From: Flavobacterium pisciphilum
Lineage (GTDB): Bacteria > Bacteroidota > Bacteroidia > Flavobacteriales > Flavobacteriaceae
Assembly: GCF_020905345.1 (NCBI RefSeq)
Contig: NZ_JAJJMO010000001.1
Location: 1,426,001 to 1,490,000 of the forward strand
Length of the DNA: 64,000 bases
Direction of reading: 5' to 3'
Shown: positions 37,695 through 60,753 of the stretch, one piece after another
Numbering within the stretch: the first letter of the stretch is position 1
Layout: each line of letters starts with the position of its first letter
Position numbers and translations under genes: made by a program
Notes under the pieces: model-generated
What the model saw: the letters and a program-made list of their open reading frames with translations, nothing else
The model's database searches: none
What the model was told of the DNA's origin: nothing

Positions 37695-37722
37695 AAGAAA
37701 CTCACGATAATTTTAAAAGAAA

Positions 37723-37743
37723 CTTAGATACTTAGAGCCTCAC
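37723..37743. repeat. CTTAGnnn array (short)
   Basis: CTTAG occurs at 37723 and 37731, then CTCAC at 37739, in exact 8-nt phase. Confidence 0.6.
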
Positions 37744-37775
37744 GTTTATCTATTTTACAATCTTAAAACAAAAAA

Positions 37776-37812
37776 CTTAGATACTTATCCGCTTAGCTAC
37801 TCAGAACCTCTT
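37776..37812. repeat. CTTAGnnn array, strict 8-nt period
   Basis: Units start at 37776 (CTTAG), 37784 (CTTAT), 37792 (CTTAG), 37800 (CTCAG) and 37808 (CTCTT), every 8 nt. The array abuts the stop codon of kdpC. Confidence 0.8.
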
Positions 37813-38367
37813 TTATTTCAAAGCATCCAAAGCTACATTTAGCTCTAGGACATTGACCATTGCAGTCCCCATAACCTTAGGAGTATTGATATTAGCTTCA
37901 ACCAAAGCTTTTACTTTATCTTCGGCTAATTTTCTTTCTTTGGCAACACGTTTCACTTGAACCAATGCTCCTTGAGGAGATATATTTGGATCCAATCCAC
38001 TACCAGAAGCAGTAACCATATCAGCAGGAATGTCTGATTTTTTTAAATACGGGTGAACAATTAAAAAAGTATCAATTCTCTTCTGAACCAAAGCCAAATA
38101 TTCGGCATTACTTGGTCCTTTATTACTTCCACCACTTCCTGCAGCATTATAATCTACAGCCGAAGGACGCCCCCAGAAATAATTAGGCTTATCAAATTTC
38201 TGACCTATTTTTTGATACCCTACTACTTTACCGTTAACCGAAATAGTTTCTCCTTTACCGTGGTTTGGAGCAAACTGTGCAATTCCATAAATTGCCAACG
38301 GATAAATAACTGCAAACAGAACCACCATTAGTAGGGTAAATTTTAATATTGAAAATATATTTTTCAT
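37813..38367 (-). CDS. kdpC: Potassium-transporting ATPase subunit KdpC
   Basis: The 184-residue subunit has one N-terminal membrane helix (about 8-28) and a periplasmic domain. It has the family hallmarks KPNYFWGRPSA, YNAAGSGGSN, the conserved ASGSGLDPNISPQGA and the C-terminal VNVLELNVALD. KdpC is a non-catalytic subunit thought to stabilise the complex and assist ATP binding by KdpB. It is separated from kdpB by a spacer containing a CTAAG/CTTAG ladder. Confidence 0.95.
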   Translation of the reverse strand: MKNIFSILKFTLLMVVLFAVIYPLAIYGIAQFAPNHGKGETISVNGKVVGYQKIGQKFDKPNYFWGRPSAVDYNAAGSGGSNKGPSNAEYLALVQKRIDTFLIVHPYLKKSDIPADMVTASGSGLDPNISPQGALVQVKRVAKERKLAEDKVKALVEANINTPKVMGTAMVNVLELNVALDALK

Positions 38368-38387
38368 TTTATTTTATTTTTGAGTTC

Positions 38388-38459
38388 CTGAGCAGCTAAG
38401 GGCTAAGTTTCCAAGTTTTTTTCCCAGTTTCTTAGCGTCTTAGTACCTCAGAATCTTGT
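38388..38459. repeat. Opposed CTAAG / CTTAG arrays able to form a ladder hairpin
   Basis: The left half has CTGAG (38388), CTAAG (38396), CTAAG (38403) and CCAAG (38411). The right half has CTTAG (38431), CTTAG (38439), CTCAG (38447) and CTTG (38455) with exact 8-nt period. CTGAG-CTAAG-CTAAG can pair with CTTAG-CTTAG-CTCAG as 5-bp rungs separated by small internal loops. It occupies most of the kdpB-kdpC spacer. Confidence 0.75.
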
Positions 38460-44560: not shown

Positions 44561-44747
44561 GTTATTTTAGTTATTTGTTAATAAAATACTTCTAAATACT
44601 TTCCATTAATAGTAATTCTTCAAAACTATTACTTCCCATTTTTATATTCCCAATTAAAATTGGATTTAAAAAAATTCTATTTGTTACCTTTACGGGTTCA
44701 AAATATAAATCAATCCCGATAATATCGGACCTAAATCATAGATTACA

Positions 44748-45566
44748 ATGTCTGTAGCAAAAAAAGATTATAAAAGAATTACAACTAAATCATTAATTGA
44801 AATGAAAGCCAATGGGCAAAAAATTTCAATGCTTACGGCTTACGATTATACCATGGCCAAAATTGTTGACACTGCTGGAATTGATGTAATTCTTGTAGGA
44901 GACTCTGCATCAAATGTGATGGCAGGACATGAAACTACATTACCAATTACCTTAGACCAAATGATTTACCATGCCTCATCTGTAGTAAGAGCTATCGAAA
45001 GAGCATTGGTTGTTGTTGATTTACCTTTTGGAAGTTACCAATCGGATCCAAAAGAAGCTTTACGTTCTGCTATCAGAATTATGAAAGAAAGCGGTGGTCA
45101 CGCAGTAAAACTAGAAGGTGGAAAAGAAATTAAAGAATCTATAAAAAAGATATTAAACGCTGGAATTCCTGTTATGGGACATTTAGGTTTAACACCACAA
45201 TCAATATACAAATTCGGAACCTATACTGTTCGTGCTAAAGAAGAAGATGAAGCAGAAAAACTAATTGCTGATGCCAAAATGCTAGAGAAAATTGGTTGTT
45301 TTGCTTTGGTTCTAGAAAAAATCCCTGCACATTTAGCTCAAAAAGTAGCTGAAAGTATCTCAATCCCAGTAATCGGAATTGGAGCTGGTGGTCAAGTAGA
45401 CGGTCAGGTTTTAGTAATTCATGATATGCTAGGAATGAACAATGAGTTTAGTCCACGTTTTTTAAGACGATACATGAACTTATACGAAGGAATGACAACT
45501 GCAATTAGCCAGTACGTAGACGATGTAAAATCTGGAGATTTCCCTAATTCTAGTGAGCAGTACTAG
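44748..45566 (+). CDS. panB: 3-methyl-2-oxobutanoate hydroxymethyltransferase
   Basis: The 272-residue enzyme adds a hydroxymethyl group from 5,10-methylene-THF to ketoisovalerate in pantothenate synthesis. Diagnostic blocks are [66 protein letters not shown] and [21 protein letters not shown]. The N-terminal lysine-rich extension is short. No other pan genes are adjacent. Confidence 0.96.
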
Positions 45567-45575
45567 ATTGTTGGA

Positions 45576-45622
45576 TTTTTAGACTAGCTTAGATATTTAG
45601 ACTAACTTAGACTTCTTAGATT
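45576..45622. repeat. TTAG-unit array, left arm of a long stem
   Basis: TTAG occurs at 45579, 45589, 45597, 45607 and 45616. Its reverse complement matches 45702-45749 perfectly over 16 nt at one end and 19 nt at the other, with a 12/13-nt divergent middle. It begins 10 nt after the panB stop. Confidence 0.85.
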
Positions 45623-45701
45623 GCGAATGTTTAAATTTATTAAAATTTTATATTGCTTAATTAATCATAAAATTTAAAGATAAATTACAAAAATAATAGA
45701 A

Positions 45702-45749
45702 AATCTAAGAAGTCTAAATCGTTACAAAAAATCTAAGCTAGTCTAAAAA
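45702..45749. repeat. CTAAG-unit array, right arm of the stem
   Basis: CTAA units start at 45705, 45714, 45733 and 45743, with one degenerate unit near 45724. The array runs into the ATG of the four-helix gene. It is the inverted partner of 45576-45622 and a direct-repeat partner of 46095-46137. Confidence 0.85.
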
Positions 45750-46099
45750 TGCATCAATTTAAAGAATTAGGAATATGGAAAAAAAGTAGATTATTTTGCT
45801 CTAAAATTTATGAAGCAACATCTACTTTTCCTAATGAAGAAAAATTCGGAATAACAAATCAATTAAGAAGAGCAGCTGTCTCAATTCCTTCTAACATAGC
45901 CGAAGGATCTTCTAGAAATTCAAATAAAGATTTTGCTAGGTTCTTAGAAATTGCCATTGGTTCTGCCTATGAAGTCGAAACACAACTTCTAATTTCTTCA
46001 GATTTAGGATTCATCAATGAAGAAAAAACAATTGAACTAACAAAATTACTGGAAGAAATTATTAAAATGACATCTAGATTTAGAACCACTTTAATCTAA
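45749..46099 (+). CDS. Four-helix-bundle protein (23S rRNA intervening-sequence/S23 family)
   Basis: The 116-residue protein shows the TIGR02436-type pattern: KELGIWKKSRLFCSKIYEAT, FGITNQLRRAAVSIPSNIAEG with the invariant SIPSNIAEGSSR, FARFLEIAIGSAYEVETQLL and a final helix. S23-type proteins are encoded in intervening sequences of 23S rRNA in some bacteria and are related in fold to Avd of diversity-generating retroelements, which binds nucleic acid. This copy is far from any rRNA. Its ORF is bounded on both sides by CTAAG arrays that touch its start and stop codons, and also the start of the next gene. Base composition is like the neighbours. Confidence 0.92.
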   Translation: MHQFKELGIWKKSRLFCSKIYEATSTFPNEEKFGITNQLRRAAVSIPSNIAEGSSRNSNKDFARFLEIAIGSAYEVETQLLISSDLGFINEEKTIELTKLLEEIIKMTSRFRTTLI

Positions 46100-46137
46100 A
46101 AAGTCTAAAATTCTAAGCCAGTCTAAGTAAGTCTAAA
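46095..46137. repeat. CTAAG-unit array between the four-helix gene and the pseudouridine synthase
   Basis: CTAA units start at 46096, 46105, 46113, 46123 and 46133. The first overlaps the stop codon of the four-helix gene and the last runs into the next ATG. The beginning matches the array at 45704 in 15 of 18 positions, as a direct repeat. Confidence 0.8.
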
Positions 46138-46827
46138 ATGAAGATACTATCTAACAAAAATAACTTGCAAATTTTGCATGAAGACAACCATATTATTGTG
46201 GTTAATAAGCGTGTAGGCGATATTGTACAAGGTGATAAAACAGGCGACAAACCTCTTTCTGATATTGTAAAAGAATATATAAAAGATAAATACAACAAAC
46301 CTGGTGATGTGTTTTTGGGAGTTATTCATCGTTTGGATCGTCCTACAACTGGAATAGTTGTTTTTGCTAGAACGAGCAAAGCATTAACGCGTATGAACGA
46401 ATTGTTTAGTAATCGCGAAACTCAAAAAACGTACTGGGCAGTTGTCAAAAATAAGCCTAAAGAAACGACAGCCAAATTGGTTCATTTTTTAAAAAGAAAT
46501 GAGAAAAACAATACTTCAAAAGCACATTTAAAAGAAGTTCCTGACAGCAAATTAGCTAGTTTAGATTATACCGTTTTTAAAGAACTACAAAATTATGTAG
46601 CATTAGAAATCAATTTACATACAGGCAGACATCATCAGATTAGAGCCCAACTTTCGGCAATTGGTTCGCCTATAAAAGGAGATTTAAAATATGGCTTCGA
46701 CAGAAGTAATCCCGATGGAGGAATTCACCTGCATGCTCGAAAACTCACTTTTATACATCCAGTAACCAAAGAATCACTTACTATTATCGCTCCTACTCCA
46801 GATGAAGTCATATGGAATGCACTATGA
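46138..46827 (+). CDS. RluA-family pseudouridine synthase
   Basis: The 229-residue enzyme has the RluA catalytic block IHRLDRPTTGIVVFARTSKA with the essential aspartate. An opening LQILHEDNHIIVVNKRVGDI and the C-terminal LHTGRHHQIRAQLSAIGSPIKGD are also present. It lacks an S4 domain, as in RluA/RluC-like short forms and TruC. The RNA target is unknown; tRNA or 23S rRNA is expected. The start codon directly follows a CTAAG array. Confidence 0.92.
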   Translation: MKILSNKNNLQILHEDNHIIVVNKRVGDIVQGDKTGDKPLSDIVKEYIKDKYNKPGDVFLGVIHRLDRPTTGIVVFARTSKALTRMNELFSNRETQKTYWAVVKNKPKETTAKLVHFLKRNEKNNTSKAHLKEVPDSKLASLDYTVFKELQNYVALEINLHTGRHHQIRAQLSAIGSPIKGDLKYGFDRSNPDGGIHLHARKLTFIHPVTKESLTIIAPTPDEVIWNAL

Positions 46828-46900
46828 TTTTTAGAGAAAAACTATTTTATTTGATATTTTAAAATTAACTTGCATAGTGCTAAACTAAGCTGATTTAAAA

Positions 46901-48229
46901 ATGGACTATAAAAATGACATCGGTTACAGAAAAGAGACGCTTAAAAAACTATTGTTCAACATACAAAAAAGCGAAGATTTAATTATTAAAGCCCTGTATG
47001 ATGATTTCAAGAAACCTGCTTTTGAAGCTGTTCTAACCGAAACTAATTATGTCATTTCTGAACTAAAAGACACCATAAAGAATATTCACAGTTGGGCAAA
47101 ACCTCAGCGTATATTCCCATCAATACTTAACTTCCCTTCTTCTGATTATATCTACAAAGAACCTTACGGAAAAGTATTAATCCTTGCTCCTTGGAACTAT
47201 CCTTTTCAATTGGCATTATGTCCTTTAATTTCAGCTGTAGCTGCAGGAAATAAGGTTGTTTTAAAACCATCTGAACTGACTCCTAAAACTGCAGAGATAA
47301 TAAACGAAATTATCCAGAAAACCTTCCACATCAATCATGTCGAAGTAATACAAGGCGCTGCCGATGTTTCACAAAAACTTTTAGAAAAACGTTGGGATTA
47401 CATATTCTTTACTGGAAGTGTAGCTGTTGGGAAAATTGTTGCAAAAGCTGCAGCCGAGAATCTGACTCCTGTTACGCTAGAGCTTGGAGGAAAAAATCCA
47501 TGTATTATTGATGAAACTGCTGATTTAAAATTAGCAGCAAAAAGGATTGTATGGGGTAAATTTATAAATGCTGGGCAAACATGCATTGCTCCCGATTATA
47601 TCTTGATTCATAAAGACATGAAAGCTCATTTTATAGGATATCTAAAAGATGAAATTAATAAAGCTTATGGTCAAAATCCACAAGAGTCCCCTGATTTTGC
47701 AAGGATAGTCAATACCAAAAACTGGGTAAGACTGGACAGCATGATTGAGCCTGCTAAAGTGATTTTTGGAGGACAAACTGAGGCAAAAAACCTTTACATC
47801 GCTCCAACCCTTATTGATGAACCGACCATAGAAAGTAATATCATGCAAGAAGAAATTTTTGGACCGATATTGCCTATCCTCTCCTACAAAACAGAAGCTG
47901 ACATAAAAAACGTCATCGATCAATACGAAAAACCGCTTGCACTATATGTATTTAGTGATAATAAAAATTTCACTAAAAAGATAATTGCACGTTACTCATT
48001 TGGTGGAGGATGTATTAACGACACAATTGTACATTTTTCAAATAAAAGACTTCCTTTTGGAGGTGTTGGCCATAGCGGTATTGGAGCTTATCATGGAAAA
48101 TTAAGTTTTGATACTTTTTCTCATCATAAAGGCATTGTCAAAAAAGCCAACTGGCTAGATTTACCAATGCGATACGCACCATATAAAGATAAATTAGCTA
48201 CCATAAAAAAATTATTAGACTGGATGTAA
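46901..48229 (+). CDS. Aldehyde dehydrogenase (NAD(P)+, class 3-like)
   Basis: The 442-residue enzyme oxidises aldehydes to acids. The catalytic cysteine is C228 in NAGQTCIAPDY and the general base is E194 in TLELGGKNP. PWNYPFQLAL and VLKPSELTP are the usual substrate and cofactor loops. The length (about 440) and lack of an N-terminal extension fit the class 3 group that handles fatty or aromatic aldehydes. It is not in an obvious operon. Confidence 0.92.
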   Translation: MDYKNDIGYRKETLKKLLFNIQKSEDLIIKALYDDFKKPAFEAVLTETNYVISELKDTIKNIHSWAKPQRIFPSILNFPSSDYIYKEPYGKVLILAPWNYPFQLALCPLISAVAAGNKVVLKPSELTPKTAEIINEIIQKTFHINHVEVIQGAADVSQKLLEKRWDYIFFTGSVAVGKIVAKAAAENLTPVTLELGGKNPCIIDETADLKLAAKRIVWGKFINAGQTCIAPDYILIHKDMKAHFIGYLKDEINKAYGQNPQESPDFARIVNTKNWVRLDSMIEPAKVIFGGQTEAKNLYIAPTLIDEPTIESNIMQEEIFGPILPILSYKTEADIKNVIDQYEKPLALYVFSDNKNFTKKIIARYSFGGGCINDTIVHFSNKRLPFGGVGHSGIGAYHGKLSFDTFSHHKGIVKKANWLDLPMRYAPYKDKLATIKKLLDWM

Positions 48230-58847: not shown

Positions 58848-60698
58848 ATGAAGAAAATCTACTCTTCCCTTTTTCTATTGCTCTTTACTATTGCAACTTT
58901 TGCTCAAATTCCATCAGGATATTACAACACGGCAACTGGAACAGGTTACACCCTGAAAACTCAATTATACAATATCATTAAAGGACATACCGATAATGGA
59001 TACGCTGGTTTATATACCACGTATCAAACATCTGATATTGATAATTTTTTCGAAAATGACGGAAGTGTCTTAGACATGTATTCTGAAAATCCATCAGGAA
59101 CTGATCCGTATAACTATAGCATAGGAACGACACAAAGATGTGGTAATTACGTATCAGAAGGAGATTGTTATAACCGCGAACATATAATTCCACAATCGGT
59201 ATTTAGCGAAAAAGCTCCGATGGTATCGGATGCACATTTCATCACACCTACAGATGGAAAAGTAAATGGAATACGATCTAATTATCCCCATGGAGTGGTA
59301 AATACACCAACATATATTTCTCAAAATGGTGGAAAACTAGGCGCCAATTCTACATCTGGGTATTCAGGAACTGTTTTTGAACCTATCAATGAGTTTAAAG
59401 GAGATATTGCTAGAATGTATTTTTATTTTGCAACACGTTATGAAAATACCGTTGCTGGTTATAGTTATCCTATGTTTGATGGTTCAGGAAACAAAGTATT
59501 TACTGCTGCTTTCTTGAATATTCTTTTAGCTTGGAATGCACAAGACCCAGTAAGTCCAAGAGAAATTGCAAGAAACAACGCCATTTATGCACGTCAGAAT
59601 AATCGAAATCCATATATCGACCATCCAGAATATGTAAATCAAATCTGGAACCCATCTGCTGACACACAAGCACCAACAATACCAACAAGTTTAGCGAGTA
59701 CTTCTAAAACAGCCACTACTATTTCTTTAAGCTGGACTGCATCTACAGACAATGTAGGAGTTACAGGTTATAACGTTTATACAAATGGTGTTTTAAAAAC
59801 TACCGTAACAGGATTAACTGCTACCATAACAGGGTTGACAGCTGCAACAAGTTACAATATTACTGTCACTGCAAGAGATGCTGCAGGAAATACTTCAGCA
59901 GTAAGCAATACTATCACAGTAGTTACAGATACAAGTGGCGGACCTGGACCTGGAACTAACACTGACTTATTATTTACGGAATACATAGAAGGTTCTGGAA
60001 ACAACAAAGCATTAGAAATCCTGAACTCAACTGGAAGTCCTGTAAATTTATCTAATTACAGCATCAAAAGACAAACTAACGGAACTGGTGCATGGAGCTC
60101 AGGACTTACTTTGAGCGGAACCTTAAATACTGGAAGCAAATTCACCATTGTAAATAATTTAATGGCATCAAGCTGTTTCCCGACAAGCTCAGCCAATCTT
60201 TCAACAACTGCCCCAGAACTTACCTTTAATGGAAACGATCCTGTAGGTTTATTCAAAAACGGTGTACTTATCGATATTATCGGAACTTTTAATGGTGGAT
60301 CTGCAAACTTTGCTGTCGATGTAACTTTAAGAAGAAAATCAACTATCACCTCTCCGAGCACAACCTTTAACTTAAGTTCTCAATGGGATTCCTTTAGCGT
60401 TGATACTTGCAATAATTTAGGAAATAAAACTTTGGGGGTTACAAAAGAAAAGATCGTTTCAGATTCAAATGAAATCTTACTATATCCAAACCCTTCAAAT
60501 GGTAATTTCTTTATCAGTTTCGACAATTCAAACGCTCCATATTCAATTGAAATAATTTCGGTAACAGGTCAAAAAGTGTTCGAAAAACAAAGCACAACAC
60601 AACAATCTATAGCTGTAAGTAATCTTCCAAAAGGATTATACGTAATAAAAGTGATTAAAGAGGAAAAAACTCTCATTAAAAAGATAATAATCAACTAA
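58848..60698 (+). CDS. Secreted endonuclease I with FN3, lamin-tail and T9SS sorting domains
   Basis: The 616-residue protein has a signal peptide (1-19, ending FAQ) and an endonuclease I domain (about 20-270). Its catalytic-type block is NREHIIPQSVF, with DAHFITPTDGKVNGIRSNYP. A fibronectin type III domain (about 277-362) and a lamin-tail domain (about 374-525, LLFTEYIEGSGNNKALEI) follow. The C-terminal type A T9SS sorting domain (about 545-616) has LLYPNPSNG and ends in KKIIIN. It is exported by the gliding-associated secretion system and probably degrades extracellular DNA or RNA for nutrients. Confidence 0.93.
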   Translation: MKKIYSSLFLLLFTIATFAQIPSGYYNTATGTGYTLKTQLYNIIKGHTDNGYAGLYTTYQTSDIDNFFENDGSVLDMYSENPSGTDPYNYSIGTTQRCGNYVSEGDCYNREHIIPQSVFSEKAPMVSDAHFITPTDGKVNGIRSNYPHGVVNTPTYISQNGGKLGANSTSGYSGTVFEPINEFKGDIARMYFYFATRYENTVAGYSYPMFDGSGNKVFTAAFLNILLAWNAQDPVSPREIARNNAIYARQNNRNPYIDHPEYVNQIWNPSADTQAPTIPTSLASTSKTATTISLSWTASTDNVGVTGYNVYTNGVLKTTVTGLTATITGLTAATSYNITVTARDAAGNTSAVSNTITVVTDTSGGPGPGTNTDLLFTEYIEGSGNNKALEILNSTGSPVNLSNYSIKRQTNGTGAWSSGLTLSGTLNTGSKFTIVNNLMASSCFPTSSANLSTTAPELTFNGNDPVGLFKNGVLIDIIGTFNGGSANFAVDVTLRRKSTITSPSTTFNLSSQWDSFSVDTCNNLGNKTLGVTKEKIVSDSNEILLYPNPSNGNFFISFDNSNAPYSIEIISVTGQKVFEKQSTTQQSIAVSNLPKGLYVIKVIKEEKTLIKKIIIN

Positions 60699-60721
60699 TT
60701 AAAAATTAGACAATCAATAAT

Positions 60722-60753
60722 TAAAAAGTAGCAAATTGCTACTTTTTTTTTTG
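60722..60753 (+). terminator. Intrinsic terminator
   Basis: AAAAAGTAGCAA pairs with TTGCTACTTTTT, followed by a long T-run, after the endonuclease gene. Confidence 0.88.

Follow-up and report, generated by a model that had tools for sequence, protein, structure and literature searches.

A four-helix-bundle gene of the S23 family between inverted repeat arrays in Flavobacterium: a candidate mobile cassette of operon spacers

Why is a small gene between two operon neighbours enclosed by three arrays of the same short repeat, and is this arrangement peculiar to one place? The locus lies in the window analysed here, the whole stretch of 64,000 nucleotides at positions 1426001-1490000 of contig C1 in the 5.46-Mb Flavobacterium pisciphilum genome. 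On the forward strand, panB (44748..45566) is followed by a gene for a four-helix bundle protein of 116 aa (45749..46099), a member of PF05635 / TIGR02436 (S23, the 23S rRNA IVP family), and then by a gene for an RluA-family pseudouridine synthase (46138..46827). An initial annotation had described three arrays of CTAA/TTAG units around the four-helix gene, and all three were recovered on that strand: a 5' array of TTAGA/CTTAG units (45564..45622) that begins within the last-codon region of panB, a middle array of TCTAAG units (45702..45761) that extends over the four-helix gene's first codons, and a 3' array of TCTAAG units (46093..46137) that overlaps its end. The two right-hand arrays are, as had been noticed, direct repeats of each other (D1, D3), and each leads into an ATG (45749 and 46138).

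The left array is the inverted partner of both others. Its pairing with the middle array is perfect over 16 nt (45607-45622 against 45702-45717, 16/16) and reaches 89% over 35 nt further out (45564-45598 against 45727-45761); its pairing with the right array is looser, at 15/16 (45607-45622 against 46093-46108), and in both respects the initial reading was borne out. In local alignment, the left and middle arms score 71 and the left and right arms 35, against a best score of 26 elsewhere in the window (2,940 stretches of 72 nt, same local alignment score). The left and middle arrays together are predicted to form a long hairpin (45563..45762, forward strand) with the start of the four-helix gene in its stem: folding of 45560-45765 gives -65.9 kcal/mol (z -10.7), a value equalled by none of 200 shuffles, and the larger fold that includes the whole gene (45560-46145) has a z of -5.4. 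The CTAAG bracketing of this gene is thus far from chance.

What is unusual at the locus is the arrangement of the arrays and not the abundance of the bare word. In the window AGTCTAA shows no enrichment (11 occurrences against 10.05 expected, a count that 41 of 100 shuffles match or exceed), and TCTAAGNNAGTCTAA occurs ten times in the genome, five of them at this locus (reversed control, 0). A known RNA family was rejected: in an Rfam scan of 44700-47000 there was no rRNA match and nothing at gathering score, with one CRISPR repeat match below threshold. Elsewhere in the window, gene-less CTTAG/CTAAG arrays lie on either side of an ORF at 37813-38367 (37700-37815 and 38380-38455), the second of them with inverted units that make a short hairpin; a tandem repeat of 22-23 nt (2.4-2.5 copies) at 60675-60731 is unrelated to the CTAAG arrays.

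The protein matches PF05635 at 140.1 bits (cut-off 33.8; E 3.7e-41) and TIGR02436 at 134.2 bits (cut-off 24; E 1.9e-39), a newer precomputed list also assigns PF22296 to these proteins, and its nearest relatives are Flavobacterium proteins. An AF2 model made with 22 aligned relatives shows four helices (pLDDT 97.4), and among solved structures the protein is closest to 2gsc (TM up to 0.96) and 2rld (up to 0.84); these two entries have five chains each. The 2gsc structure is reportedly a pentamer, and a five-fold ring is likewise the form that we would expect of the window protein. Avd (4dwl, TM 0.81) and DGR ribonucleoprotein entries (about 0.80) are also similar in fold, with weak Foldseek E values (0.05-0.28). 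PF05635 and, weakly, bAvd (23.9 bits, under the cut-off of 40) are the sole matches of the window gene, which shows no HUH (Y1) transposase domain; the Avd equivalog profile gives 21.7 bits, under its cut-off of 80.

Bracketing was then scored across the genus by aligning the 200-nt flank upstream of each gene to the reverse complement of the downstream flank, with a threshold of at least 30. The loci were the higher-scoring among the matches listed (124 matches, 108 without repeats, 105 with full flanks). The family was present in 60 of 61 sampled genus genomes and had no match in 14 control genomes. Inverted arms were found at 68 of the 105 sampled genes, against 3.0% of mismatched flank pairs, and direct repeats at 22.9% (mismatched, 0.7%); the other 37 genes scored below 30. 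The control was blind and consisted of 639 random genes from forty 20-kb stretches in eight genus genomes: only five had such arms (Fisher p 1.1e-62), and a four-helix gene, a GIY-YIG gene and a GxxExxY/PDDEXK_3 gene were among those five. Thus the enrichment of arrays near four-helix genes, for which the initial annotation had proposed a check, is real for inverted arrays. Among control genes under 450 nt, 4 of 116 scored at least 30, and among the other genes of the window 3 of 60. An earlier control, now superseded by the 639 genes, had 8 of 129 genes at or above the threshold; judged by coordinates, six were four-helix genes, and the flanks of the other two ran into such a gene. The idea that the S23-type gene sits in an inverted-repeat loop, with the geometry of an rRNA intervening sequence (IVS), is supported, and the unit occurs at many sites.

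Inverted bracketing is general for four-helix genes; the word is not. CTAAG, taken at first as the word, is specific to one clade, and others carry GTATTAAG, AGTGATT, AAAGTCT, GGGAACA and more. As a special word it was rejected, since the genus set contains 25 word clusters, 12 of them made up of a single locus, and CTAAG falls in just one. The window genome itself has eight family matches, two of them partial, and the flanks of the rest bear other words. Nor is a three-arm switch the general design: the form with an upstream hairpin and a downstream arm, seen in the window, is a minority one, and the switch was rejected because an upstream hairpin was found at only 13 of the 105 sampled genus genes.

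The flanks are periodic. In each of four taxon sets, autocorrelation of 130-nt flanks was highest at lag 7 and echoed at 14 and 21. The observed/expected ratios at lag 7 (upstream/downstream) were 1.22/1.19 in the genus (lag 8, 1.14/1.15), 1.31/1.31 in other Bacteroidota, 1.47/1.50 on cyanobacterial plasmids and 1.53/1.32 outside Bacteroidota, against 1.00/1.03 for control genes. A periodic flank that beat 60 of 60 shuffles was found at 73 of 105, 47 of 66, 12 of 14 and 25 of 28 loci of these sets, respectively, and at 31 of 114 control loci, mainly with period 8, a figure inflated because some control loci had been chosen for CTAAG arrays. A second periodicity detector picked 44 of the 105 sampled genus genes and 34 of the 639 random genes. 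The median number of units per arm is 4.4 (123 of 140 arms), with period 7 in 77 and period 8 in 37, and the arms lie at a median of 32 nt 5' of the start codon and 11 nt 3' of the stop. Their polarity is fixed: the upstream arm is G-rich at 111 loci, C-rich at 15 and neutral at 14 (n=140). The CTAAG word of the window is itself spaced by about 9-10 nt.

These two properties, heptads and polarity, distinguish the four-helix family from other bracketed families. The nuclease matches in the blind control (L411:14793-15167 and L427:1704-1994) have relatives in the genus that are often bracketed as well: 17 of 29 GxxExxY genes and 17 of 30 GIY-YIG genes scored at least 30, with mismatched rates (11% and 5.8%) that are high because loci share words. 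Thus, inverted bracketing is common to several small gene families. However, neither nuclease set shows a peak at lag 7 (GxxExxY 0.91/0.97, GIY-YIG 1.08/1.06) or an arm polarity (9 versus 8 of 19, and 8 versus 9 of 20), and their words are of other kinds, GCAAAG/CACAAAG and the TTCGACTCCGCTCAG type (L437-L466, L467-L496). At one place in a Flavobacterium genome (G022:C1:181321-182930) five GIY-YIG genes stand in a row, their starts 350 nt apart.

The pattern is spread over phyla. Across the phylum, the family was found in 88 of 118 genomes, and 10 of 28 loci scored at least 30 against 0.5% of mismatched pairs (28 of 29 matches used, a few of them from Flavobacterium itself); among GTDB species it was 34 of 74 loci against 2.4% (74 of 80 loci used). 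Five of the eight GTDB loci taken by title as non-Bacteroidota, one of the eight being titled just 'bacterium', scored at least 30, as did 13 of 28 loci from ten such genomes (mismatched, 0.4%; 28 of 30 loci used, some repeating the GTDB species loci). PLSDB has 29 matching records, of which 23 are cyanobacterial; among the 14 of these 23 that were analysed, eight loci scored at least 30, with a mismatched rate of 8.8% that reflects homology between some loci. The cyanobacterial plasmid arms are plain heptads, for example GGGAACA / TGTTCCC. Three plasmid genes lie inside annotated CRISPR operons, twice as cas6-gene-cas4 and once as cas10-gene-cmr3 (L323, L329, L332). A phage origin was rejected, as 50,697 phage records searched with two queries (E 1e-5) held no family match.

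The word of the arrays follows the protein across sites. We compared loci with an arm score of at least 28, 74 for the genus alone and 140 (73 from the genus) in a wider set. Among pairs at different sites, the word was shared by 5 of 5 pairs at a protein identity of at least 0.8, 31 of 45 at 0.7-0.8, 16 of 56 at 0.6-0.7, 6 of 121 at 0.55-0.6 and 135 of 9,119 below; sharing with the opposite strand was 0-4.4%. In the genus alone, none of 2,000 permutations gave an association of word and protein as strong. The initial annotation had counted freely varying arrays against a link to the gene, an objection that applies only in part: the arrays do vary, but they do so in step with the protein clade.

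Individual sites show the same (names are by eye except for panB, the RluA family and the annotated plasmid genes). At fadB-fadA, one clade (3 loci) has TGTATAAT and another (5 loci) has GTATTAAG; at the site before MINLFNTH, CTAAG and CAAAG words are largely, not wholly, split by sub-clade. Conversely, a single clade and word are common to sufC-sufD and nuoF-nuoG, and another clade and word to gmk-nadD and two more sites. On a quick genus tree, in which many forks are open, the 25 word clusters require 26 changes (73 rows) and the 29 sites 29 changes (105 rows). Each site is thus nearly monophyletic; jumps between sites are therefore rare, and linkage alone could hold word and protein together.

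The genes point the same way as their surroundings, which holds for 99 of 102 downstream neighbours and for 100 of 104 upstream ones. Over 241 four-helix genes there are 98 site clusters. Comparison of the panB-rluA spacer between strains, as the initial annotation had suggested, gave a patchy picture: of the 52 genomes that could be resolved, the window genome counted, 12 have the gene (5 of 57 have no panB upstream). Spacers with the gene measure 443-741 nt (median 547.5) and the 40 spacers without it a median of 50.5 nt. The orthologues at this site have a median dN/dS of 0.116 (54 of 66 pairs usable), which indicates purifying selection.

Arrays are also common without the gene. At panB-rluA, 20 gene-less spacers reach 45 nt, and 8 of these are periodic. 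The closest relative at this site, whose RluA-family protein is 97% identical, has a gene-less spacer of 205 nt with a different word, and gene-less spacers of close relatives bear a word other than that of the gene. In six gene-less spacers (L049, L052, L053, L055, L056 and L059) there are CTAAG arrays and, by eye, a common palindrome of the GCCTCCAGCTTTAGCTGGAGG kind or a variant of it where the gene would be. L016 has inverted arrays around a short loop without a gene. In one genome, two four-helix genes that are 97% identical and have like words lie at two sites 2.8 kb apart (L109 and L110, G040:C17:27597-30791), possibly a recent copy event.

Solo arrays are loosely tied to the cognate gene. 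Of the 14 genomes that have the cognate gene, 8 contain solo arrays of the CTAAG word, versus 10 of the 47 that lack it (p 0.018), or 7 of 14 versus 10 of 47 once the gene's own flanks were excluded (p 0.047); for GTATTAAG the counts were 5 of 6 versus 14 of 55 (p 0.009), and 3 of 6 versus 14 of 55 without own flanks (p 0.34). These genome numbers are hand counts, and the reversed-word control was itself array-like (18 matches in G021, 10 in G008) and hence not clean. Array density did not correlate significantly with gene copy number over eight genomes (rho 0.42, p 0.30). The sister genome G004 has 36 matches to the CTAAG-clade word and no cognate gene, so arrays may outlast their gene, or expand without it.

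The reading that we think somewhat probable is that the 5' array, the four-helix gene and the inverted 3' array make up a small mobile and probably selfish cassette, whose ring protein reads its own words. Such a cassette would have spread into the spacers of co-transcribed operons, moving as a unit. Its ring-forming protein would recognise its own arrays by their heptad (or octad) word, binding that word specifically, and protein and word would for that reason diverge together. In the polycistronic RNA, the inverted arms may fold the insert out into a stem whose loop contains the gene, and the RNA could be processed; folding out would make the insert tolerable, as with the S23 intervening sequences of 23S rRNA, which would then be a special case of the cassette. 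In its favour are the inverted bracketing, the period of 7 nt, the polarity, the word that follows the protein clade from site to site, the patchy presence at panB-rluA, the shared direction with neighbours, the purifying selection, the fold and the spread over phyla. Against it stands the coding content of the unit, which encodes no transposase, nuclease, RT or recombinase, and any enzyme that would move it is inferred. Also against it are the near-monophyly of the sites, the 37 genus genes below 30, the many gene-less arrays with their loose tie to the cognate gene, and the array density, which does not significantly track copy number.

The gene-less arrays might instead come first. Arrays could arise by themselves in operon spacers, through slippage or hairpin copying, and the gene could home or recombine into spacers of like word, the match being one of target choice. 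Gene-less arrays are indeed common and only loosely tied to the cognate gene, they flank the ORF at 37813-38367 in the window, they surround the short loop of L016, and in the sister genome the panB-rluA spacer consists of them, with a different word. However, the gene-less arrays of the close relatives at panB-rluA have a word other than the gene's, the 40 gene-less spacers there are mostly short and only eight are periodic, and target choice leaves unexplained the parallel change of word and protein in the orthologues of a single site. We regard this account as unlikely. That small spacer genes are often flanked on both sides simply because AT-rich spacers are rich in low-complexity hairpins is very improbable. 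Such an ordinary origin can point to the 34 of 639 random genes whose flanks count as periodic when the threshold is relaxed, to the 3 of 60 other window genes and to the two bracketed nuclease families; yet inverted arms at 4 of 116 short random genes, at 5 of all 639 and at 3.0% of mismatched pairs fall far from 68 of 105, other phyla show the same pattern, and the two nuclease sets lack both period 7 and polarity.

An immobile, long-lived regulatory unit would account for other features. Its arms would process or stabilise the operon mRNA, its protein would autoregulate, the arrays would co-evolve by selection and the sites would differ mostly by loss. The near-monophyly of the sites, the purifying selection, the placing of the arms (at a median distance of 32 nt from the start codon and 11 nt from the stop) and the strong hairpin at the start codon of the window gene all fit, as does cleavage by RNase III at such repeats in the Coxiella IVS, described in the available text of PMC4990558. 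In contrast, 98 site clusters among 241 genes, presence in 12 of 52 genomes at panB-rluA, one clade at unrelated operons and plasmid copies within cas operons speak against such a unit, and we consider it quite unlikely.

The mobile, word-reading cassette can be extended. More tentatively, and we consider it possible and no stronger, S23-type genes would be the coding partners of bacterial heptamer repeats, with rRNA IVS, operon cassettes and solo arrays as three states of one element. In that case the word would be rewritten in concert in both arms as the ring protein changes, and the GIY-YIG and GxxExxY genes would be parallel gene-word pairs, giving a class of word-reading cassettes. A statistically strong link between S23 genes and heptads, with a testable code from protein clade to word, opens both the function of S23 and the origin of the heptamers to study. 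If true, it would be a pairing of gene and repeats in which no transposase or nuclease is recognised, and its cassettes lie in core operons: panB-rluA and, by eye, groES-groEL, sufC-sufD and nuoF-nuoG, besides cas operons on plasmids.

Several known systems resemble this one in part. The likeness to REP/RAYT (TnpA-REP) elements lies in a single gene between inverted repeats that are found alone as well. The window protein, however, belongs to PF05635 and has no HUH/Y1 transposase, and the dependence of solo arrays on the cognate gene is weak; the strict analogy was rejected on these two grounds. Of the REP/RAYT-like logic put forward initially, the part that stands is that gene and repeats recur at many sites, and the part that is weaker than was put forward is the dependence of gene-less arrays on a cognate gene, borderline for the CTAAG word and not significant for GTATTAAG. 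The DGR protein Avd shares the fold (4dwl, TM 0.81; DGR ribonucleoprotein about 0.80; Foldseek E 0.05-0.14); it differs in that the window protein falls below the Avd and bAvd cut-offs, the PF22296 assignment of the newer list notwithstanding, and has panB and an RluA-family gene as neighbours. TRAP is a ring protein that reads evenly spaced NAG repeats. As a ring on evenly spaced short cores it may serve as a mechanical analogue, although its fold differs and the units of the four-helix family are longer and worded.

Published intergenic heptamers are a further comparison. They include TAACTGA (PMC4679880), GGGAATC and GGGGA(C/T)T (PMC4692102) and the Calothrix heptanucleotides cited in PMC4692102, and the available text of PMC4679880 and PMC4692102 places them in cyanobacteria, Xanthomonas, Beggiatoaceae and Bacteroidetes, with about four units typical of the Xanthomonas arrays. 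The period of 7 nt, the intergenic position and the occurrence in cyanobacteria and Bacteroidetes are shared; in contrast to the arrays described here, those arrays are, in the text available, not tied to any gene, and the comparison made here is one of period. The words 'S23' and 'four helix' are absent from PMC4679880 and PMC4692102, and in searches of an open-access library we recognised no paper that joins four-helix genes with heptad arrays; in the available text of PMC4990558 and PMC4692102, the S23 family is without a settled function and the intergenic heptamer repeats without a known maker. The unit is of the kind of the S23 IVS. The Coxiella IVS, of 428 nt, ends in inverted repeats that make a 28-bp stem, and its S23 ORF is preceded by tandem heptamers, according to the available text of PMC4990558. 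It thus has in common with the present unit the protein family, an ORF between inverted repeats capable of forming a stem and heptamers before the start. It differs in its place, since the window unit lies in a protein-coding operon, between panB and an RluA-family gene, and not in rRNA, and in that the arrays of the operon cassettes are worded by clade.
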